From the NCBI GenBank assembly GCA_027484915.1, contig JAIXSA010000009.1, forward strand, positions 1 through 36,321: 36,321 nt of DNA. Direction: 5' to 3'. The position numbers and the translations under genes were made by a program. The notes beneath the pieces are model-generated. The model searched no databases and was not told the origin of the DNA. It was given only the letters and a program-made list of their open reading frames with translations. Positions 16,256-26,060 of the stretch are shown here, piece by piece. The stretch's first letter is position 1; each line of letters starts with the position of its first letter. Origin of the DNA: Paracoccaceae bacterium. GTDB taxonomy: Bacteria; Pseudomonadota; Alphaproteobacteria; Rhodobacterales; Rhodobacteraceae.

Positions 16256-16387
16256 ATGGGATTGCCGTCGGTCGGGGCGCAACTTCGGGACAGGCCGTAC
16301 GGCCGTGCCATTCATAGGCGCAAGCTTGTCGCAATAGTGTGCACCGCCCGTGCCTTGCGGGCGGCCCAGGCGAAGAGAAGAGGATAG
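16256..16387 (+). CDS. Candidate small leader ORF, 43 residues, upstream of the PfkB kinase
   Basis: A perfect AGGAGG at 16242-16247 stands 8 bases before the ATG at 16256, which opens a 43-residue basic peptide (MGLPSVGAQLRDRPYGRA at its start, ending AQAKRRG) stopping at TAG 16385-16387. The kinase GTG follows after two bases, and the kinase ribosome site (AGGA, 16381-16384) is inside this ORF, an arrangement that would couple the two. Another in-frame ATG at 16250 is too close to the AGGAGG. The peptide resembles no family I know and has no signal or membrane segment. It may be a regulatory leader or a chance ORF; protein-level evidence is absent. Confidence 0.4.
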   Translation: MGLPSVGAQLRDRPYGRAIHRRKLVAIVCTARALRAAQAKRRG

Positions 16388-16389
16388 TT

Positions 16390-17265
16390 GTGCTGCAGCA
16401 ACCCGTGGTTCTGGTCGTCGGCTCGCTTCACCATGACATCATGGTCGAGGCGGACCATCTGCCCCGCGCGGACGAAACCGCGGTCGGTTCGCGCTGGTAT
16501 CCCAAGTTCGGCGGCAAGGGCGGCAACCAGGCCGTCGCGGCGCAGACGGCTGGGGTGCGGGCCCGGATGCTGGGGGCCGTGGGGCAGGATGCCTTCGGGG
16601 ATTTCCTGCTGGCGGCGCTGGACAGGGGCGGCGTCGACCACCGGTTTGTCCGCCGGATCGACGGGGTCGGCTCGGGGATGAGCGTGGCGATCCAGGACAG
16701 CGCGGGCGACTATGCCGCGACCATCGTCTCGGGTGCCAACCTGCTGATCGACCCGCGCGACCTGGACGATCCCCTGGTCTGGGAAGACGTGCGCGCCCTG
16801 GTCCTGCAGAACGAGGTTCCGGCCGGGGTCAACCTTGCCGCCGCGCGCAGCGCGCGGGCACGTGGCGTGCCGGTCATCCTGAACGCGGCCCCGGCGCGCG
16901 AGGTGTCGCCGGACCTGGGGTCTGCGGTCGATGTCCTGATCGTGAACGCGGTCGAGGCCGAGATGCTGGGCGCGGGCCCGGTGACCGACCTACCATCCGC
17001 CCTGGCCGCCGCCGGCTACCTGGCCGCGCAGTACGACAGCGTGGTGGTCACCGCCGGAGCGCATGGGCTTGCCGTTTGTAGCCGGGTGGGTGCCCAGGTG
17101 ACGATTCCCGCGCGCAAGGTCACTGTCCTCAGCACCCACGGCGCGGGCGACTGCTTCACCGGGACCCTGGCCGCAGCCCTGGTGACAGGACAGTCGCTCG
17201 AAGAAGCATGCCGCACTGCCTCGGACGCCGCCGCCCGCCATGTCTCGGGTGGATCGGCTGCGTAG
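16390..17265 (+). CDS. PfkB-family carbohydrate kinase (ribokinase-like)
   Basis: About 291 residues from the GTG at 16390, which is preceded by GAGAAGAGGA and sits just before the family's first strand (VVLVVGSLHHDIMVE). PfkB features: GGKGGNQAVAAQTAG (ribokinase-type sugar loop and signature 1), NEVPAG, NAVEAEML, VTAGAHG, and the ATP/catalytic motif STHGAGDCFTGTLAAAL where GAGD carries the catalytic Asp. It phosphorylates a sugar, ribokinase-like substrates being the first guess. An in-frame GTG at 16339 exists but lacks a ribosome site. It converges on the sugar ABC operon and may phosphorylate the sugar that operon imports. Confidence 0.87.
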   Translation: MLQQPVVLVVGSLHHDIMVEADHLPRADETAVGSRWYPKFGGKGGNQAVAAQTAGVRARMLGAVGQDAFGDFLLAALDRGGVDHRFVRRIDGVGSGMSVAIQDSAGDYAATIVSGANLLIDPRDLDDPLVWEDVRALVLQNEVPAGVNLAAARSARARGVPVILNAAPAREVSPDLGSAVDVLIVNAVEAEMLGAGPVTDLPSALAAAGYLAAQYDSVVVTAGAHGLAVCSRVGAQVTIPARKVTVLSTHGAGDCFTGTLAAALVTGQSLEEACRTASDAAARHVSGGSAA

Positions 17266-17343
17266 GCGAGGCGCACCGGGCAGGCGGTCCGTAACGTGCG
17301 CGAACCGACCAGGCATCGGGTTCGGAAACGGGGTGGAGCGCGG

Positions 17344-17643
17344 TTATCCGGCGCGCTTGGACAACATGGTCAGTGGCCTGATCTCGACCTGACAGGCCAG
17401 CAACCGGTCCAGTTGCGAGAACAGCGGCTGCAGGTGCGGCATAGCAAGATGCGCGTCGAGTGCGGCGCGGCTGGTCCAGTTTTCGTAGAAGACGAAGACG
17501 CAAGGGTTGGTCGCATCGACGTGGAAGTCGTAGTTGATGCAGCCCTCTTCGGCCCGGGTGGGCGCTACCTGTGCGGCGAGAAGCGTTGCAAGCTCTTCCC
17601 GCGTTTCGGGCCGGGCGGTGACGGTGCCGATGATCGTGTACAT
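17344..17643 (-). CDS. Antibiotic-biosynthesis-monooxygenase (ABM) domain protein, YgiN/LsrG-like
   Basis: A 99-residue single ABM-domain protein: MYTIIGTVTARPETREEL, EEGCINYDFHVD, FVFYENWTSRAALDAHL and MPHLQPL are the family's conserved strands and helix. Relatives include quinol monooxygenase YgiN and the AI-2 degrading isomerase LsrG; these ferredoxin-like dimers need no cofactor. The gene is the last of the sugar operon and starts one base after the permease stop (TGA-C-ATG), so it is co-translated with the transporter. Lsr systems also place an ABM gene beside an RbsABC-type transporter, but the LsrK and LsrF genes are absent here. A role in processing an oxidised sugar intermediate is inference. 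Confidence 0.82.
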   Translation of the reverse strand: MYTIIGTVTARPETREELATLLAAQVAPTRAEEGCINYDFHVDATNPCVFVFYENWTSRAALDAHLAMPHLQPLFSQLDRLLACQVEIRPLTMLSKRAG

Positions 17644-17644
17644 G

Positions 17645-18613
17645 TCAGGTCCGTTTCTGGCTGAGGGCGACGGCCAGGATGATGATCCCGCCCCGCGCGA
17701 TAAGTTGCTGGCTGAACTCCAGCCCCATGAGGATCAACCCGTTGTTGATCAGCCCGATCATCAGGGCGCCGACGATGGTGCCGATGACCGTGCCCTTGCC
17801 GCCGAACAGGCTGGTGCCCCCCAGGACGGCGGCGGCGATGACGGAAAGCTCGTCCCCTTCGCCCAGCTGGAAGCGGCCCGATTGCAGGCGCCCGGCGTAG
17901 AGCATCCCGGCAAGGGCGGCCGCGCAGGAGGAGAGGACGAGGACGCGGAACTTGATCGAAGCCGTGTCGATGCCGGAATAGCGCGCTGCGGTTTCCCCGC
18001 CGCCCGTCGCCAGCACCCGGCGGCCAAAGCCGGACCGGCGGAGTGCGATGTGTCCGACACCCGCGATCAGGGCCATCCAGAACATCAGCACCGGGATCGG
18101 GCCGACCGACCCGCCGCCGAAGATCCAGGAGTAGGATGGGGACAGGATCGGAACGGCGGCAGTGTCCGAGATCCACATCGCCACGCCTTTGGCGATGCCC
18201 ATCATCGCAAGCGTCGTCAGGAAGGACGGAATGCCGATCTTCGTGGTCAGCCAGCCGTTGAACATGCCGACCGCCAGCCCGGTGGCCAGACCGGCAAGTA
18301 GGCCACCCACCGGCCCCGCTACGGCAATCGCCATCGCGACCGTCACGGTGGCAAGCCCCGCGACCGCGCCGACCGACAGGTCGATCTCGCCCGCCGACAG
18401 GACAAAGGTCATCGCGACGGCCATCACCGCGATCATTGCCGTCTGGCGGATGATGTTGAGCAGGTTGTTGGGGTTCAGGAACCCCTTGTCGTTCAGCGTC
18501 AGCGCGAAGACCACGAAGATCACCACAAAGCCGATGTAGATGATGTTCTGCCGCCAGTTGGCGAAGAAGCCCCCGGCGAGGTCGGAGCGGGGGGCGGTTG
18601 CTGCCTTAGACAT
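17645..18613 (-). CDS. Sugar ABC transporter permease, RbsC type
   Basis: 322-residue permease of the ribose/xylose/autoinducer-2 family (BPD_transp_2). About eight to ten hydrophobic spans; the diagnostic region MTFVLSAGEIDLSVGAVAGL is present, as are the loop GETAARYSGI and the C-terminal GGTSLFGGKGTVIGTIVGAL. The ATG at 18613 overlaps the ATPase stop by 8 bases. Together with the RbsA-like ATPase and the binding protein it makes a monosaccharide importer. It is typical in length and lacks oddities. Confidence 0.93.
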   Translation of the reverse strand: MSKAATAPRSDLAGGFFANWRQNIIYIGFVVIFVVFALTLNDKGFLNPNNLLNIIRQTAMIAVMAVAMTFVLSAGEIDLSVGAVAGLATVTVAMAIAVAGPVGGLLAGLATGLAVGMFNGWLTTKIGIPSFLTTLAMMGIAKGVAMWISDTAAVPILSPSYSWIFGGGSVGPIPVLMFWMALIAGVGHIALRRSGFGRRVLATGGGETAARYSGIDTASIKFRVLVLSSCAAALAGMLYAGRLQSGRFQLGEGDELSVIAAAVLGGTSLFGGKGTVIGTIVGALMIGLINNGLILMGLEFSQQLIARGGIIILAVALSQKRT

Positions 18614-20177
18614 GGCTGGGCTCCTTGATGCTGAGGGCTTTCTGGATTTCGATCTGCAACCGGCGCTCGGCGGCTTGCAGGGCATGTTCGGGGTCGGTCT
18701 CGGAGGGATCGTCCAGATCGGCGCGGTCCAGCATCTGATGCGCGCGGCCGTCGGCCATCACCAGGATGCGGTCGCAGGCGGTAAGGAGTTCCGACAGTTC
18801 GGAGGAAATGACGATCACGCCTTTTCCTGCTTGCGCCAGGTCGCGGACCAAGCGGATGATCTCGGACTTCGACCCGATGTCGATGCCCGCTGTGGGTTCG
18901 TCGAGGATCAAGATCTCCGGCTCGGTCGCGAGCCATTTGCCGATCACCACCTTCTGCTGGTTGCCGCCCGACAGGGTGGACACGGCATGGTCCCGGCTGG
19001 CTGTCTTGACCGACAGGCGCTGGATCATCCGGTCCGCCAGATCGCGCACCCGCTTCCGGTCGACGAACCCGCGGGGCGAGAGGCGGCCGATGACCGCCAT
19101 CGCCATGTTGTCGGCAACACTGTGCGCCGGGATGATGCCTTGCGTTGCTCGCGCCTCGGGCACGAGCGCGACCCCGTGAGCAATCGCATCTGCGGGGCGG
19201 CGGATGGTGACCTTCTTCCCCCTGATGCGGATTTCGCCGGCCACTGCAGGTTCGATCCCGGCAATCACCCGCGCCAGGGCCGACCGGCCCGAGCCGAGAA
19301 GACCGGCCAGACCGACGACCTCGCCCCGATGGAGGGTCAGGCTGACGTCTTCCGGCTTGTGCGGTCCGGTCACGGATGTGAGTTCCAAAAGCACCTCGCC
19401 CCGCGAGGCATCGCCGCGTGCGACATCGGCCAGGCCCTTGGATTTCTTGCCGACGATGTGTTCGATCATCACGTCCAGGGGCAGGTCCGCCATCGGAGCG
19501 GTAATGACATGCTTGCCGTCGCGCAGGATCGTGGCGCGGTCGGCGATGCGGGCGATTTCGTCCATTCGGTGGCTGACATAGATGATCGCCACGCCCTTCT
19601 CCGTCAGCTTGCGCAGAAAGACGAAGAGCCGCTCCACATCCGACACCGCAAGCGCCGTCGAGGGTTCATCGAGGATCAGCACGCGGGCGTCCTGGCTGAT
19701 GGCCTTGGCAATCTCGGTCAGCTGCTTCTGCCCGGCCCCCAGATCACCGACCAAGGCGCGCGGGTTCACCTCGACCTCAAGCATCTGGAAGATCGTCTCG
19801 GCGCGGTGGACAGAGTCTTCGTCGTCGATCATCCCACGCGCGTTGCGTGCCTCACGGGTCAGGAACACGTTCTGCGCCACGGTCAGCGTCGGGATCAGCG
19901 ACATTTCCTGAAAGTTCATCGCGATGCCCGCCGCCCGCGCTGCTTCGGGCGTGTGGGCGGCAAGCCTTTGGCCGCCCACCTCGATCTCGCCTTCATCCGG
20001 CACGTGCACGCCGTTCAGGACCTTGAGTATGGTCGACTTCCCCGCCCCGTTGCCGCCCAGAAGCGCATGGACCTCGCCCGCGCGGACCTCGAAGTCGACG
20101 CTGTCCAGGGCCCGGATGCCGCCGAAGGATTTGGAAATCCCGGTCATCCGCACGGCAGTTGGGGCGGGAGCGGTCAT
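18606..20177 (-). CDS. Sugar ABC transporter double ATPase, RbsA type
   Basis: 523 residues with two tandem ATPase domains as in RbsA/XylG/MglA. Domain 1: Walker A GGNGAGKST (41-49), signature LGAGQKQ and Walker B VLILDEPSTAL. Domain 2: the degenerate Walker A GLLGSGRS normal for this family, signature LSGGNQQK and Walker B ILILDEPTAGID. The first site therefore is the likely main hydrolytic site. Its ATG overlaps the dehydrogenase stop (ATGA). It powers the RbsC-type permease encoded next. Confidence 0.93.
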   Translation of the reverse strand: MTAPAPTAVRMTGISKSFGGIRALDSVDFEVRAGEVHALLGGNGAGKSTILKVLNGVHVPDEGEIEVGGQRLAAHTPEAARAAGIAMNFQEMSLIPTLTVAQNVFLTREARNARGMIDDEDSVHRAETIFQMLEVEVNPRALVGDLGAGQKQLTEIAKAISQDARVLILDEPSTALAVSDVERLFVFLRKLTEKGVAIIYVSHRMDEIARIADRATILRDGKHVITAPMADLPLDVMIEHIVGKKSKGLADVARGDASRGEVLLELTSVTGPHKPEDVSLTLHRGEVVGLAGLLGSGRSALARVIAGIEPAVAGEIRIRGKKVTIRRPADAIAHGVALVPEARATQGIIPAHSVADNMAMAVIGRLSPRGFVDRKRVRDLADRMIQRLSVKTASRDHAVSTLSGGNQQKVVIGKWLATEPEILILDEPTAGIDIGSKSEIIRLVRDLAQAGKGVIVISSELSELLTACDRILVMADGRAHQMLDRADLDDPSETDPEHALQAAERRLQIEIQKALSIKEPSHV

Positions 20178-21340
20178 TCCACCCGCTCCCACTTGCCGGT
20201 TTCGCCGGACCGCAGGAGGGCGTCGGCGACGAGTTCGGTCAAGAGACCATCCTCGAAATTCGGGCTGGGCTGCTTGCCGGTGGCGATGGCGGTGAAGAGG
20301 TCGAAGCATTCCACGATCTTCGTCTCGGAATAGCCGATGCCCAATCCCGGGATCGGCCAGAGACCGCCGCCATAGGGGTGCGCCGGGCCGGTGTAGACGG
20401 TGCGGAAGCCGCGCGCATCGGCGGGGTCGTCGGCGAACATCACCTGCAGCTCGTCGCGGCGTTCGTAGTTGAAGTGGATCGAGCCCTTGGTGCCGTGAAT
20501 CTCCAGCGTGATGAAGTTGTTGCGGCCCCAGGCGTTGCGTGTCGCCTCAAGGCTGCCGATGGCGCCGTTGCCGAACTTCAGCATCGAGACGACCTCGTCG
20601 TCCACATCGACCGGAGCGCGTTCGGCACCCCCCGATTTCTCGGACGCGCCCAGCTTGTCGACGCCACCCTGCTGGATGGGCCGCGTGGTGACATAGGTCT
20701 TGGTCATCGCGATCACCTCGGCAATCGGGCCGACCAGGTAATGCGCAAGGTCAACGACATGGGTGCCAATGTCGCCCACCGTGCCGGACCCGGCGATCTT
20801 CTTCTGGAAGCGCCAGGACAGGGGGCCGTTTTCATCCGCCGACCAGTCCTGCAGATAGGTGCCGCGGAAGTTCAGGATGCGGCCGATGCGGCCTTCGTCG
20901 ATGTATTTCTTGGCCAGCGCCACGGCGGGCGTGCGGCGGTAGTTGAAGGCGACCATGTGGATCACCCCGGCGGTCTTCACCGCCTCGGCCATCGCGCGGG
21001 CTTCCTCGACCGTGCGGGCCAGGGGCTTTTCGCAGATGATGTGCTTGCCCGCCTTGGCGGCGGCGATGGCGATCTCGGCGTGGACGTTGTTCGGCGTGCA
21101 GATGTCGACCACGTCGATGTCGGGCCGGGCGACGACCGAACGCCAGTCGCTGGACGCCTCGTCAAAGCCAAAGCGGCGGCGGGCTTCTTCGGCGGCCCCG
21201 TCGGTGACATCGACGACGACCTTGCGGTGCGGGATGGCCGGGGCGGGCCAGAAGAACATTGGCATCGAGGCATAGGCCATGGCGTGCGCCTTGCCCATGA
21301 ACCCACCGCCGATCATGGCGACGTTCATCACTTTGGTCAT
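20174..21340 (-). CDS. Gfo/Idh/MocA-family NAD(P)-dependent sugar dehydrogenase
   Basis: 388-residue oxidoreductase. The Rossmann motif MIGGGFMGKAHAMAY starts at about residue 8; EKPLART (the EKP motif with the catalytic Lys) and DIGTHVVDLAHYL (with the active-site Asp/His) follow, then the C-terminal alpha/beta substrate domain. It oxidises a sugar or polyol hydroxyl. Sitting in an operon with an AP-endonuclease-type isomerase and a sugar importer, it resembles sets that act through keto-sugars (for example ThuB-like or inositol pathways), but the substrate cannot be named. The ATG at 21340 is chosen at the start of family similarity. Confidence 0.9.
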   Translation of the reverse strand: MTKVMNVAMIGGGFMGKAHAMAYASMPMFFWPAPAIPHRKVVVDVTDGAAEEARRRFGFDEASSDWRSVVARPDIDVVDICTPNNVHAEIAIAAAKAGKHIICEKPLARTVEEARAMAEAVKTAGVIHMVAFNYRRTPAVALAKKYIDEGRIGRILNFRGTYLQDWSADENGPLSWRFQKKIAGSGTVGDIGTHVVDLAHYLVGPIAEVIAMTKTYVTTRPIQQGGVDKLGASEKSGGAERAPVDVDDEVVSMLKFGNGAIGSLEATRNAWGRNNFITLEIHGTKGSIHFNYERRDELQVMFADDPADARGFRTVYTGPAHPYGGGLWPIPGLGIGYSETKIVECFDLFTAIATGKQPSPNFEDGLLTELVADALLRSGETGKWERVE

Positions 21341-21411
21341 TGTCGGTCTCCGAAGAAGGGGGAAGGACCTTCGCGGGCGGGGGAGCATGCGCCACCCCGA
21401 AGGCCCGGTTT

Positions 21412-21441
21412 GCGCGCGGGGGTCAGTGACGCCCCGCGCGC
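21412..21441 (-). promoter_or_regulatory. Intercistronic stem-loop after the sugar-binding-protein gene
   Basis: A perfect 10-bp inverted repeat (GCGCGCGGGG at 21412-21421, CCCCGCGCGC at 21432-21441) with a 10-base loop begins 6 bases after the binding-protein stop and precedes the dehydrogenase gene. No strong T-run follows. By position it is likely to stabilise the binding-protein message or partly terminate transcription. Confidence 0.6.
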
Positions 21442-21447
21442 TTCGGG

Positions 21448-22569
21448 TCACTGCATCGACGACTTCACGTTGTCGGTGGCTTCGGTCGAGTAGACCTGGG
21501 TCCAGGCCTCCAGGAGGTTGTCCTTGGAAACCGGAAGTGCAGGCAGGGCCACGAAGTCGGGCGCGTCCTTGCCAAGAAGCCCGTAACCGGCAAGCTTCGC
21601 CTCGACCACACCGGCGTCATAGGGGCGCTGGGCGCCCAGACCCTTGATGAACCCGCCCTGCGCCATGCTGATGGCGACGTTTTCCCCAAGGTCCACCGTG
21701 GTGATGATCAGATCATCGCGGCCGTTGGCGCGGGCTGCGGCCATCACGCCTTCAGCAGGCACGTCCCAGACCGCCCAGATCCCCTTGATGTTCGGGTTCG
21801 AGGTCAGCATCGCGCCCGCAGCCTTCTCGGCATCGCCCGAGAAGTCCGGTCCGCCGATCCCCTGTTCGTCCACGATCTTGATGTTGGGATAGTCGCTGGC
21901 GATGGTCGCCTTGAAGGCGTCATAGCGCTGCTTGGTCACGAAGAAGTCGGCGGCGTGAAACACAAGGCCGATCTCGCCGCCGTCCGGCCCAAGCGCCTTG
22001 GCCATCAGATGGGCCGCCGCGACACCGTTGCCGTAGTTGTCGGCCGAGACGACCGAGACGTAGTCCGTGCCAGCCACAAACCCTGCGGGGACGTTGTCCA
22101 TGAACACCAGTTTCGCCCCGGCCTCTGCCGCTGCGCGATAGGCGGCGGCGGTGGCGGTCGGGTCGGTCGGGATCGACACGATGATGTCTGGCGACTGCGC
22201 CATGATGGTTTCCAGGTCGCTGACCTGCTTTTCCGGTTTGAACCCGGCGTCGGTTACGGCGATCACTTCGATCCCCATCGCCTCGAACTGGGTTTGCAAC
22301 CCGTTGATCTGCGCCCGGCTCCAGTCGTTGCCGCCGTAGTGCATGACGATGGCCGCCGTGGCCCCCATCTCCTTGATCTTCGCCAGTTCCTCGTCCGTCA
22401 GCACGACGTCGGAGGCGGGCGAGGGATCTTCGCCGCTGGGACCCTTGGAGAGGACCGTCTCCAGCAGTTTCGCAAGGGCTTCGTCCGGGTCGGCAAAGGC
22501 CGGAAGGGCCGCGCCCAGTGCAAGCGCAAGGGCCATGGTCGAAGTCATCAGGGTCCGTCTGGTCAACAT
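21448..22569 (-). CDS. Sugar ABC transporter periplasmic binding protein (Peripla_BP_4)
   Basis: 373-residue solute-binding protein of the ribose-binding type. The N-terminus MLTRRTLMTSTMALALALGA ending ALPAFA-D is a signal peptide. The mature two-lobed domain begins near ATAAIVMHYGGNDWSRAQ and continues with DIIVSIPTDP, VFMDNVPAG, VVSADNYGNG, GIWAVWDVPAEGVMAA and ITTVDLGENV. GGGAGGAG precedes the ATG. It feeds the RbsA/RbsC-type transporter. Its closest relative in the window is the signal-less protein at 25056-26060, with which it shares these blocks in the same order. Confidence 0.92.
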   Translation of the reverse strand: MLTRRTLMTSTMALALALGAALPAFADPDEALAKLLETVLSKGPSGEDPSPASDVVLTDEELAKIKEMGATAAIVMHYGGNDWSRAQINGLQTQFEAMGIEVIAVTDAGFKPEKQVSDLETIMAQSPDIIVSIPTDPTATAAAYRAAAEAGAKLVFMDNVPAGFVAGTDYVSVVSADNYGNGVAAAHLMAKALGPDGGEIGLVFHAADFFVTKQRYDAFKATIASDYPNIKIVDEQGIGGPDFSGDAEKAAGAMLTSNPNIKGIWAVWDVPAEGVMAAARANGRDDLIITTVDLGENVAISMAQGGFIKGLGAQRPYDAGVVEAKLAGYGLLGKDAPDFVALPALPVSKDNLLEAWTQVYSTEATDNVKSSMQ

Positions 22570-22624: not shown

Positions 22625-23446
22625 TCAGCCCGCGATGGCCCGGTTCAGGTAAGTCATGCTCAGCCGCGCGCCCTCGGCGGGGTCGGGCCAGGCATCAAGT
22701 TCGGTGCAGACCCAGCCCGAGAAGCCGACATCCTTCATCGCCTGCAGGATCGGTCCGGTGGGCACGTCGCCCCGGTCGATGGGGGTGAAGGCGAAGGGCT
22801 CACGCTGGAAACCTTTCAGGTGGACATAGGTGATTCGCGCCGCGTGATCGCGGATCAGCTGCGCCGGATCGCCCCCGGCGGCGGCGAGGTGTGCCGTGTC
22901 GGGGCAGAAGTCGATGGCGGTCAGGTCGAAGATCTTGGCGACTTCAGCCGGGCCTTCGACGATGGTCGACAGATGCGGGTGGTAGTGGGCGCGCAGCCCC
23001 CGCGCCTCGGCCAGCGCCTTCACCCGGTCAAGGGCCGCGCCGAGCTTGTGGAAGTCGGGTTCGCGGGTGCCGTCAAAGCGTTTCGCCCCACCCCCCACCA
23101 CCAGATGCGGCGCACCCAGTTCCGCGGCCCGGTCGGCAGCGCGGGTCACGCGGGCCAGTTCCTCGGGCAGGATGTCGTCGAAGATGAAGTTGCCGCCGGC
23201 ATAGGTGGCGACCAGCTCCAGCCCGTTGTCGGCCAGAAGGCCGCGCATCTCGGACGCCGAGTGGTCCAGGAGATTGCCGTCGAAAAGCTCGACCCCGGCA
23301 TAGCCCGCTGCCGCGATATCGGCAAAGGCGCGGTCCATTGCGCCAAAGGTGCGATAGCGCAGCTGAGTGATCGAGGTCACCCCCACTGCATCGCCGCCAA
23401 GGCTGCCCCAGCAATTGGCGTGATAGGCCAGTTTCCAGGCTGTCAT
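22625..23446 (-). CDS. Sugar phosphate isomerase/epimerase (xylose-isomerase-like TIM barrel, AP_endonuc_2)
   Basis: 273-residue TIM barrel. Typical metal-site segments are VELFDGN, HYHPHLSTIVEG, DFCPDTAHLAAAGGD, YVHLKGF and CTELDAW. Relatives include IolE/IolI inosose enzymes, tagatose-3-epimerases and 3-keto-sugar enzymes. The ATG at 23446 was chosen because GGGGAGGA lies just upstream; an ATG six codons earlier lies before that site. It is the first gene of the sugar operon, facing the divergent ROK regulator across 224 bp. It likely isomerises or dehydrates the sugar, or the product of the MocA-type dehydrogenase. Confidence 0.85.
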   Translation of the reverse strand: MTAWKLAYHANCWGSLGGDAVGVTSITQLRYRTFGAMDRAFADIAAAGYAGVELFDGNLLDHSASEMRGLLADNGLELVATYAGGNFIFDDILPEELARVTRAADRAAELGAPHLVVGGGAKRFDGTREPDFHKLGAALDRVKALAEARGLRAHYHPHLSTIVEGPAEVAKIFDLTAIDFCPDTAHLAAAGGDPAQLIRDHAARITYVHLKGFQREPFAFTPIDRGDVPTGPILQAMKDVGFSGWVCTELDAWPDPAEGARLSMTYLNRAIAG

Positions 23447-23670
23447 CGTGATCCTCCCCTTCATGGCCCGGGCCCGCCGGGACCCCCGATTGACCGTTTT
23501 TCCGACGGCCTCCTCCGACCGAATGATCGTTGCTTAGGCGTGGTTTCGCGCTTGGTCAATAATATTTGTGCTTAGCAATGCCTACTTCTGCAGTTTTACA
23601 GCAAAAGTTTTTTCTTGAACAACATAAGTAGCCCTCGTATCCCTGAGGCATTCCCTGTCTGGACCCCACC
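23447..23670. promoter_or_regulatory. Divergent promoter region between sugar operon and ROK regulator
   Basis: This 224-bp AT-richer gap must hold promoters for both directions. On the minus strand TTGACC (plus 23555-23560 region) is a fair -35, but the -10 17 bases on (TAAGCA) is poor. TGCTTAG occurs twice in the same orientation (23531-23537 and 23569-23575), the second within the odd palindrome TGCTTAGCA. These are possible operator half-sites for the ROK protein. No terminator or gene seen. Confidence 0.35.
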
Positions 23671-25059
23671 TTGCCGACCCAAACGCTCACCCAAGCCGAA
23701 TCACTGCGCCCCAGGGGCAAAGGCCGTCCCCGGACGGTGGAAACGGCTGCGCCGTCGCTGGTCGAACTCCTCAACCTTGTCCGCAGCGAGACCGCCACGA
23801 CGCGGCAAGAGCTGGAGCGCCACAGCGATCTGGGCCGTGCGGTGGTGGCGGACCGGCTCACGATGCTGGGTGAGCTGGGCCTCGTGGACGAAAGTGAACT
23901 TGGCACCGCGACCGGCGGCCGCGCGCCGCGCCTGGTGCGCTTTGCCGCGCGACGGGCGGCGATCCTGGTGGCGACGCTGGACCAGACGGCTATCGGCGTT
24001 GGCGTGGCAGACCTGTCCGGCACCCTTCTGACAGAACATCACGAGGCCGCAGACCTGACCGCCCCGCCCGAGCAGTTGACCGAAAGGCTGGCCGCCTTGT
24101 TCCGATGGTCGCTGGAACGGCATGCCGCGCCGCAGGGGGTCTGGGGGATTTCGCTGTCGGTCCCCGGCGCAGTGCAGGGTGGGGCCGAGGGCGCGTTCCT
24201 GACCTCGACCCCGCCGATCATGCCCGCCTGGGAAGGCTTTCCGATGGTCGAAACGCTGACCCAAGGCTTCGGTGTTCCGGTCTGGATCCGCTCCAGCGTC
24301 GAGACGATGACGATGGGGGAACTCCACGCCGGCGCGGGCCTGGGGCAACACACGATGCTTTTCATCAAGGTCGGTCGCCGCATCGGCGCAGGCATTGTCT
24401 GCGATGGGCAACTTTTCCGGGGCGCGCAGGGGGCGGCGGGGCTGATCGGGTCGCTGCCCGTCACCCTGGGCGGGCAGACCGGGTCGCTTGATCACCTTGC
24501 CGGGTCCGACATGATCCAGCGCGAGGGGATGGCGGCTGCCAGCGACGGTCGCAGTGCCGTTCTTGCCGACATCCTGCGAAGGGGCGGCGAGATCACCGCG
24601 ATCGAGGTGTCGCAGGCCGCTCAGGTGGGCGATCCCGTCGCATCCGCCATTCTGTCCACCTCCGGCCATTTGATCGGGCAGGTGGTGGCCACGCTTGCCA
24701 ATGCGCTGAACCCCGACCTCATCGTCCTTTCGGGGTCACTGGTCCAGACCAACGACATCTTGCTCGCAGCGGTTCGCGAGGCGGTCTATGGCGCCTCGCA
24801 TCCCCTTGTGACGCGTGATCTGCGGATCATCCGGTCGCAGATGGGCAGTTCCGCCGGTCTGGTCGGCGCGGCCCGGGTGGCATCGGAGGCCCTGTTTGCC
24901 CCTGCCTTCCTGAAGGAATGGGTGATGCAGGGCCGTCCGCTGGCCCATCCCGCCTTTGCGGAATACCTGGGTCAGCTGGCCCGGGCCCAGACTCCGGTTC
25001 CGCAGCCAGCCCCGCCCGTGCCCCCGACCATGCGCCCTGGAAAGGAGCCCCAGGCATGA
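23671..25059 (+). CDS. ROK-family transcriptional regulator lacking zinc and sugar-binding residues
   Basis: 462 residues: an N-terminal winged helix-turn-helix (about 28-92, RQELERHSDLGRAVVADRL) joined to an ROK domain (from about 97). Start is the TTG at 23671; an in-frame TGA at 23644 limits alternatives and no ATG precedes the helix-turn-helix. In normal ROK proteins an ENDAN stretch and a GHxxx...CxCGxxGC zinc cluster hold the sugar. Here these read VPVWIRSSVETM (202-212) and GAAGLIGSLPVTLGGQTGS (254-272), without the Asp or the cysteines. It is therefore not a kinase and probably not a normal sugar sensor. It overlaps the next gene by ATGA and diverges from the sugar operon, its likely target. 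Confidence 0.87.
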   Translation: MPTQTLTQAESLRPRGKGRPRTVETAAPSLVELLNLVRSETATTRQELERHSDLGRAVVADRLTMLGELGLVDESELGTATGGRAPRLVRFAARRAAILVATLDQTAIGVGVADLSGTLLTEHHEAADLTAPPEQLTERLAALFRWSLERHAAPQGVWGISLSVPGAVQGGAEGAFLTSTPPIMPAWEGFPMVETLTQGFGVPVWIRSSVETMTMGELHAGAGLGQHTMLFIKVGRRIGAGIVCDGQLFRGAQGAAGLIGSLPVTLGGQTGSLDHLAGSDMIQREGMAAASDGRSAVLADILRRGGEITAIEVSQAAQVGDPVASAILSTSGHLIGQVVATLANALNPDLIVLSGSLVQTNDILLAAVREAVYGASHPLVTRDLRIIRSQMGSSAGLVGAARVASEALFAPAFLKEWVMQGRPLAHPAFAEYLGQLARAQTPVPQPAPPVPPTMRPGKEPQA

Positions 25060-26060
25060 CGATTTCCGGTCTTGGCCCCCACGGCGAACGCGCCGCGCCG
25101 CCCGAACGGGTCAGCCTTCTGCCAGATGACCGTACCGCAGCACGGGACGCATCTTGGCGGGTCGCGGTCGTCCTGCACACGTTGGACAGCGACTGGGCCA
25201 AGCAGCAACTGGCTGGAATGGTAGGGATTTTCGGCGACTGCGGCGCAGCGGTGATCGACGTGGTCGATTGCGCGTTCTCGCCCGAACGGCAGGTGGCCGA
25301 ACTTGACCGCCTGATCGCGCAGCGACCCGATGCCATCCTGTCGCTGCCCGTCGCGAACGAGCAGGTTGCCGCCGCACACGCCCGGGTCTCTGCGGCGGGC
25401 ATCAAGCTGGTGCTTCTGGACAATGCGCCGACGGGTCTTCTGCCCGGCAAGCACTATACGGCGCTTGTCTCGGCTGACAACTTCGGCCTTGGCAAGATCG
25501 CTGCGGCGGGGCTTGAACCCCATCTGCCGCAGGGTGCCGAGGTGGGTGTCCTTGGTTTCGCCGCCGATTTCTTCGCCACGAACGAACGCGAGATCGCTTT
25601 CATCAAGTGGTTTCAGGCCAACCGGGCAGATGTCCGTGTCCATGTGGCGCGGTTTGGCCGGATCGACGAGGCTGCCAAGCTTGGAGAACGTCTGTTGGCC
25701 GATCATCCCGCTCTCGCAGGGTTGTTCGTCGTCTGGGACACACCGGCACTCGCGGTGGCTGCACGGCTGAGGGAAGCCGGACGGTCGCTCCCGATGGCAA
25801 CTGTAGATCTTGGCGAAGGGGTGGCTGTTGACCTTGCCAAGGGTGGCGCGGTGCGATGCATCGCGGCGCAACTGCCCTATCAGCAAGGGATCGCGGCGGC
25901 ACAGACCGTGATCCTCAGCCTACTCGCCCGCCCTGTCCCGGCCTGGATCGCCCTGCCCGGACTGCGCGTGACGCGGGACAATGTGGTTGAAAGTTTTCAG
26001 ACTGTGTGGCGTCAGCCGGCCCCAAAGGAAGTCATCCGTGTCCTTGGGTTGGCCCGCTAG
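25056..26060 (+). CDS. Signal-less periplasmic-binding-protein-like sugar sensor, coupled to the ROK regulator
   Basis: 334-residue Peripla_BP_4 protein without a signal peptide: the N-terminus (MTISGLGPHGERAAPPERV) is polar, and the fold starts near residue 33 at SWRVAVVLHTLDSDW. It matches the operon's exported binding protein block by block: LVSADNFGLG versus VVSADNYGNG, FAADFFATN versus HAADFFVTK, VVWDTPALAVAA versus AVWDVPAEGVMAA, ATVDLGEGVAV versus TTVDLGENVAI. No helix-turn-helix is present. The ATG at 25056 overlaps the ROK stop (ATGA) and follows AGGAG, so the pair is co-translated. A cytoplasmic ligand sensor partnering the ROK protein is my inference. Alternatives are a LacI-type core that lost its DNA-binding domain or a non-functional duplicate. 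Confidence 0.82.
   Translation: MTISGLGPHGERAAPPERVSLLPDDRTAARDASWRVAVVLHTLDSDWAKQQLAGMVGIFGDCGAAVIDVVDCAFSPERQVAELDRLIAQRPDAILSLPVANEQVAAAHARVSAAGIKLVLLDNAPTGLLPGKHYTALVSADNFGLGKIAAAGLEPHLPQGAEVGVLGFAADFFATNEREIAFIKWFQANRADVRVHVARFGRIDEAAKLGERLLADHPALAGLFVVWDTPALAVAARLREAGRSLPMATVDLGEGVAVDLAKGGAVRCIAAQLPYQQGIAAAQTVILSLLARPVPAWIALPGLRVTRDNVVESFQTVWRQPAPKEVIRVLGLAR

Follow-up and report, generated by a model that had tools for sequence, protein, structure and literature searches.

Within a 36,321-nucleotide stretch of a Paracoccaceae bacterium genome (assembly GCA_027484915.1, contig JAIXSA010000009.1; hereafter the window), two overlapping genes probably encode a two-protein, or split, sugar sensor for levoglucosan catabolism, a reading to which we assign a probability of about three in four. 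In this sensor, a binding-protein homologue without an export signal (PBPc) would sense the sugar, and a regulator of the ROK family would provide the output by direct contact with it. The pair lies divergent to an operon for an isomerase, an exported sugar-binding protein (SBP), a levoglucosan dehydrogenase (LGDH), and the ATPase and permease of an ABC transporter. The score of the dehydrogenase, 715.9 bits against a cut-off of 650, marks this operon as specifically a predicted levoglucosan operon. The two genes of the pair are as follows.

23671..25059, + strand: ROK-family regulator (P0001), TTG start, 462 amino acids, with a winged-helix-aligned N-terminus and a ROK core
25056..26060, + strand: PBPc (P0002), signal-less RbsB-type binding protein, 334 amino acids, the proposed cytoplasmic sugar sensor

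The stop codon of the ROK gene and the start codon of PBPc overlap in the sequence ATGA, and a first-pass annotation made from the letters alone had the overlap, coordinates and strand right. In the mechanism that we propose, PBPc would stay in the cytoplasm for want of an export signal and bind imported levoglucosan or a near relative, its presumed ligand. Occupancy of PBPc would then be relayed to ROK through the presumed contact between the two proteins. ROK, without a canonical sugar site, would serve as the DNA-binding output at the inverted repeat CTTTTGC-N9-GCAAAAG between the divergent promoters, from which it would switch its own expression as well as that of the catabolic operon. As for the sign of regulation, we lean to the view that ROK may activate transcription and that apo-PBPc may restrain it, the arrangement of AmiC-AmiR and NasS-NasT.

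The pair is conserved. We scanned genome contigs with the peptide patterns GLGPHGERA and PDA[IV][IL]SLPV, which biases the set towards loci with that N-terminus, and retained the best 80 of the 138 relatives. The 80 come from Rhodobacterales, rhizobial and related genera, and one Rhodospirillaceae metagenome-assembled genome, with Rhizobium, Ensifer, Shinella, Kaistia, Aminobacter and Bosea among the genera represented. ROK is encoded immediately 5′ of PBPc in 79 of the 80 loci, and in the sole exception (L089) the contig starts inside PBPc. LGDH is present with at least 77% identity at 74 loci, and the remaining six contigs stop short of its position. At one locus (L042) the pair is not divergent to the operon but co-oriented ahead of it. 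Within the family, PBPc occurs with at least 55% identity in 10 of 394 genomes, source genome included, and the other nine carry an adjoining ROK gene (54-84% identity) with the isomerase and SBP alongside. In the reverse direction, a strong ROK match was found in 5 of 198 family genomes, again including the source, and PBPc is present in all five. A class-wide sample of 385 genomes gave PBPc matches below 1e-130 in three, of which one is the source and both others have ROK adjoining. A genome search of the kind proposed at first pass thus shows a ROK gene and a signal-less binding-protein gene conserved together beside sugar operons. One of the loci (L113) belongs to Shinella sumterensis MEC087, where LGDH scores 723.9 bits and which is named as a levoglucosan degrader in the available excerpts of PMC10066097. 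A LacI-type gene stands in place of the pair both in a Klebsiella plasmid levoglucosan locus and in the levoglucosan cluster of B. smithii, and the 12 kb examined in G806, which has an LGDH relative under the cut-off, contained no ROK or PBPc match.

The regulator appears to have lost the site with which ROK proteins sense sugars. P0001 matches PF00480 (E 8e-34, 117.9 bits, cut-off 22.9) and its N-terminus aligns over the winged-helix region with Lmo0178, NagC and Mlc, with no separate helix-turn-helix (HTH) match in a Pfam search. The Asp of the ENDxN motif and the Glu of the GExGH motif are residues that we take to form the ROK sugar site. In P0001 a Ser replaces the Asp of ENDAN, a Leu and a Ser replace the Glu and His of GExGH, and the CxCGxxGC cluster is absent. 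Among 79 full-length orthologues, window included, the Asp is missing in every case (Ser in 74, Asn in 4, Gly in 1), the Glu is always Leu, the His is missing in 78, and no sequence has the zinc cluster. Judged by these residues, P0001 is homologous to ROK proteins without being one of the canonical sugar sensors among them, and the first-pass annotation was correct in noting the loss of the Asp. When 16 rows of paired ROKs were compared with ten near ROKs that have no adjoining PBPc, all ten had an acidic residue at both positions (Asp in nine and Glu in one at the first, Glu in nine and Asp in one at the second). Thirty control ROKs from the relatives' genomes kept the Asp in 30 cases and the Glu in 28, although these are 30 of 62 matches, mostly best-scoring and many of them one orthologue, so that the control is a lenient one.

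Three diverged pairs extend the comparison. In Mesorhizobium sp. 131-2-5 (L159; ROK 48% and PBPc 45% identity) and in G679 (L171; 44% and 53%) the ROK protein keeps the zinc cluster and lacks both site residues, and in G700 (L170; 51% for both proteins) only the His remains of the site and cluster residues. The Asp and Glu are therefore absent from ROK in all three, with the cluster retained in two. Because seven of the ten near unpaired ROKs also lack the zinc cluster, its loss is not diagnostic; we rejected it as a mark of the split design, so that the earlier observation that the zinc segment is gone stands while the significance attached to it does not. The Mesorhizobium pair adjoins an isomerase-SBP-ABC operon that includes genes for gluconate 2-dehydrogenase subunit 3 and a GMC oxidoreductase. 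Against the levoglucosan dehydrogenase cut-off of 650, the Gfo/Idh/MocA gene of this operon reaches 111 bits and by score is not a levoglucosan dehydrogenase; its identity to the window LGDH is 32% over 246 positions. If the split sensor is real, pairs with the zinc cluster but without the sugar-site residues would record a hand-over of sensing. A stronger form of the proposal, which we hold tentatively and consider somewhat short of an even chance, is that ROK gave up sensing wholly to the cytoplasmic binding protein and became an upstream activator, yielding a split one-component system that is portable between sugar operons; the portability is suggested by the Mesorhizobium pair, which stands beside a related operon without LGDH by score. 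A different sugar locus (L048, L049) also has exported binding proteins in tandem close to a ROK gene. They were rejected as further cases, having signal-like N-termini and a ROK that keeps ENDxN and the Glu.

Dyad counting in 78 orthologous intergenic regions, window included, gave the consensus inverted repeat CTTTTGC-N9-GCAAAAG, and the window contains the following elements.

23585..23607, no strand assigned: proposed ROK operator CTTCTGC-N9-GCAAAAG, a conserved inverted repeat of 23 bp
23531..23559, − strand: inferred catabolic-operon promoter, with −35 TTGACC at 23559-23554 and −10 TAAGCA at 23536-23531
23615..23643, + strand: inferred ROK-PBPc promoter, with −35 TTGAAC at 23615-23620 and −10 TATCCC at 23638-23643

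With zero to two mismatches, the repeat is found in 71 of the 78 regions, compared with 1 of 780 shuffles and, among 769 segments drawn at random from the same loci, 3, although some of these segments may themselves contain the repeat. Centring the alignment of 63 non-redundant loci on the repeat revealed TTG at +19 in all 63 and GTCAA at −41 in 60, with TAT at +42 and TTA at −62 also conserved. These blocks would be the −35 and −10 boxes of two divergent promoters; a strict consensus promoter scan found no promoter. The repeat, which ROK presumably binds, lies between both inferred −35 boxes at nearly fixed spacing without overlapping either promoter, at about −72 from the inferred start site of the operon and −54 from that of ROK. 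This placement would suit an activator better than an occluding repressor, and the upstream position inclines us to see ROK as an activator that apo-PBPc restrains. Calling ROK a repressor, as the first-pass annotation did, is unproven because the position of the conserved candidate operator is unlike occlusion. A variant compatible with the split sensor would nevertheless make ROK a classical repressor with PBPc as its co-repressor or anti-repressor. Well-studied ROK regulators of sugar genes are understood to include repressors, but the near-fixed distances of the repeat to both −35 boxes, and its overlap with neither promoter, make the variant rather unlikely. A search of the source genome on both strands, allowing up to two mismatches, returned 61 occurrences against 31 for a control pattern, and no regulon stands out. 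One perfect copy of the repeat is found elsewhere in the source genome (L205, C49:545-567). Separately, window positions 23563-23574, between the −35 box of the operon and the repeat, hold a further conserved block, which is T-rich and then reads gCatA.

The evolutionary distances of the locus genes are in keeping with ROK as the partner of PBPc. In a mirror-tree analysis of seven genes (21 pairs) from 66 of the 80 loci plus the window, ROK and PBPc had both the highest distance correlation of any pair (0.919) and the highest partial correlation, 0.56 (0.46-0.67 in half-samples). The partial correlations of PBPc with the other genes were 0.08 for SBP, 0.02 for LGDH, 0.22 for the ATPase and 0.14 for the permease. 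Mean distances are 0.42 for ROK and 0.47 for PBPc against 0.14-0.27 for the other genes, and the co-variation is supportive only, because all of the genes are linked and ROK and PBPc both evolve fast. These values bear on an alternative in which ROK itself senses the sugar or an intermediate through a remodelled pocket, with PBPc as an accessory that buffers or delivers cytoplasmic sugar. The ROK core is well conserved, residues of the old site among it (TMTMGE, GLIG), and could hold a new pocket. We nonetheless consider this alternative improbable: PBPc co-varies with ROK and hardly with SBP or LGDH, the site loss occurs in paired ROKs and is absent from the ten near unpaired ones, and PBPc is encoded directly behind ROK at the loci examined rather than among the catabolic genes, with the co-oriented pair of L042 preceding the operon. 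Less credible still is a role for PBPc in uptake feedback, exerted on the cytoplasmic face of the transporter, with the ROK pairing reflecting co-expression only. PBPc is paralogous to the transporter's binding protein, and the ATPase was recovered at 70 of the 80 loci and the permease at 67, the others being lost to length filters or short contigs. However, its partial correlations with both transporter genes are well below that with ROK, and transporter feedback leaves the loss of the ROK site unexplained.

The split sensor further depends on PBPc being an intact binding protein inside the cell. P0002 matches Peripla_BP_4 (E 1.3e-27), with a weak Peripla_BP_3 match below the cut-off, and a Pfam search found no DNA-binding family in it. 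The maximum 11-residue hydrophobicity within residues 1-30 is 0.16-1.69 in 80 PBPc sequences (the window and 79 loci); in 76 exported paralogues it is 1.77-2.73. At 19 of 79 loci the frame stays open for no more than 10 codons upstream of the PBPc start, and no upstream extension exceeds a hydrophobicity of 1.71. On this evidence PBPc is a protein without an export signal and is not classed as an exported transport component, and the earlier description of it as lacking both a signal peptide and a DNA-binding domain holds. PBPc does belong to an exported protein family, but it is scarcely plausible that it serves as another transport binding protein, leaving the cell by a route not recognised here or being made from a start further upstream, when neither its N-termini nor their extensions reach the minimum of the exported paralogues.

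The predicted fold of PBPc is intact, bilobed and of RbsB type. Positions that we take to form the RbsB pocket were mapped onto the 80 PBPc and 76 SBP sequences, with rows dropped for L061, L064 and L081 (SBP misassigned) and L089 (cut), here as in the hydrophobicity comparison. In PBPc and SBP alike, the residue is invariant at the positions of RbsB S9 (His here), R90 (Asn), R141, N190 (Trp), D215 and Q235, and nearly so at those of F15 (Trp) and N105. PBPc and SBP have a common consensus at 11 of 15 pocket columns compared with 114 of 294 columns overall (P=0.006). P0002 is 37% identical to the exported P0003 over 331 aligned positions, which supports the relationship between the two that was noted at first pass. 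In a midpoint-rooted tree with long-branch warnings for RbsB, PBPc_Meso, L172 and PBPc_L170, all 24 PBPc sequences group in a single clade (99/98), separate from the levoglucosan SBPs, and L172 is the closest exported relative in the sample (96/89). PBPc is thus an old paralogue with a clade to itself; a recent duplication of the operon's SBP, and with it the first-pass word "copy", was rejected on this separation and because PBPc and SBP from one locus are not sisters. Two cysteines of P0002, C62 and C72, are nearly fixed in PBPc and correspond to Met and Ala in exported SBPs, and C72 is invariant even with the diverged pairs included. One contig (G1149:C322; L211, L212, L214) has a PBPc match together with two homologues, one of which is 99% identical to L172 and lies ~10 kb from the PBPc match.

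The earlier proposal of a split sensor has therefore gained strong circumstantial support from the near-universal pairing, the loss of the ROK site, the fold and pocket of PBPc and the top-ranking co-variation, without its accompanying "copy", zinc mark and "repressor". Several points weigh against it. Loss of the ROK site is no proof that ROK binds no small molecule, Mlc retains the site residues yet answers to a protein, and the control ROKs lean to canonical sequences. The regions in which the repeat was counted are also those that yielded it, and the best repeats of the diverged pairs are weak (3, 3 and 4 mismatches at L159, L170 and L171). Enrichment in the pocket is modest, the RbsB N13 position is Ser or Gly in PBPc and Asn in SBP, and position 89 changes from Asp to Glu in 9 of 76 PBPc and 7 of 76 SBP sequences but never in both at one locus. 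PBPc is also more variable than SBP (mean pairwise identity 0.648 and 0.813), and linkage of the locus genes inflates mirror-tree correlations.

The divergent operon comprises the following genes.

22625..23464, − strand: TIM barrel of AP_endonuc_2 type resembling sugar phosphate isomerases, first gene of the operon and LgdB1 candidate
21448..22569, − strand: exported sugar-binding protein (SBP, P0003) with an RR/hydrophobic signal, paralogue of PBPc
20174..21451, − strand: levoglucosan dehydrogenase (LGDH; NF052479), match beginning at residue 40
18606..20309, − strand: sugar ABC transporter ATPase, from profile searches
17645..18685, − strand: sugar ABC transporter permease of RbsC/AraH type, from profile searches

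The name LgdB1 is a presumptive one taken from gene position and the relatives' annotation, and the LGDH and ATPase reading frames as listed probably start too early. Beyond the permease lies a PfkB-family gene (16339-17645). On Paracoccus zhejiangensis pPZ03 the permease is instead followed by a monooxygenase, an isomerase and a Gfo/Idh/MocA gene, and a relative of that isomerase (64%) is found on another contig of the source genome (C109:14644-15690).

Levoglucosan is a burnt-wood sugar, and the pair occurs in some soil and water bacteria with levoglucosan catabolic genes. In the plasmid records examined, PBPc-type proteins are annotated merely as substrate-binding proteins or are unlisted, and similar sensors may therefore be overlooked. 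The operon is of the same type as the lgd clusters of PMC10066097, the available excerpts of which list ROK, LytTR, PucR and LacI clusters among the neighbours of lgdA and make no mention of ROK having a signal-less binding protein as its partner. Searches of open-licence papers, judged by title and abstract, likewise brought up no description of such a pair. If the proposal is correct, a sugar-sensing regulator has been rebuilt as two chains, with one ligand site silenced and a binding protein kept inside the cell, and a reported levoglucosan degrader that carries both the pair and a defined candidate operator offers a ready experimental case.

Parts of this design are familiar. The homology of the window ROK to NagC, Mlc and Lmo0178 takes in both the winged-helix region and the core, but compared with NagC and Mlc the window protein has neither the Asp and Glu of the sugar site nor the zinc cluster, and a binding-protein partner gene accompanies it. 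LacI and RbsR also use a cytoplasmic periplasmic-binding fold to sense sugar for transcription, but as one fused HTH-binding-protein chain, whereas here there are two separate reading frames and the DNA-binding chain is a ROK protein. The closest likeness in working may be to the AmiC/NasS-type group. In nitrate assimilation by Paracoccus denitrificans, as described in excerpts of PMC3795266, a signal-less and predicted-cytoplasmic binding-protein homologue, NasS, controls a separate output protein, NasT, and ligand dissociates the complex. Both systems have a signal-less homologue of an exported binding protein with ligand residues kept and a separate output protein. They differ in that NasS is NrtA-like, responds to nitrate and nitrite and acts on the ANTAR RNA-binding protein NasT, whereas the pair described here, known from its genes, has an RbsB-like sensor and a ROK DNA-binding output. 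In the Pseudomonas aeruginosa amidase system (in part from the same excerpts, otherwise as generally understood), a separate small-molecule-binding partner, AmiC, similarly holds its regulator AmiR in a ligand-responsive complex, with a different binding-protein family and ligand and an ANTAR output. PBPc shares with this group the absence of a signal, the conserved ligand residues and the gene position beside a regulator, but its partner is a ROK protein rather than an ANTAR output, so that ROK-PBPc may resemble the group in working without being a member of it. A split sensor with a binding-protein-like sensing chain is already known from AmiC-AmiR and NasS-NasT, and what appears to be new is its coupling to a ROK DNA-binding output.
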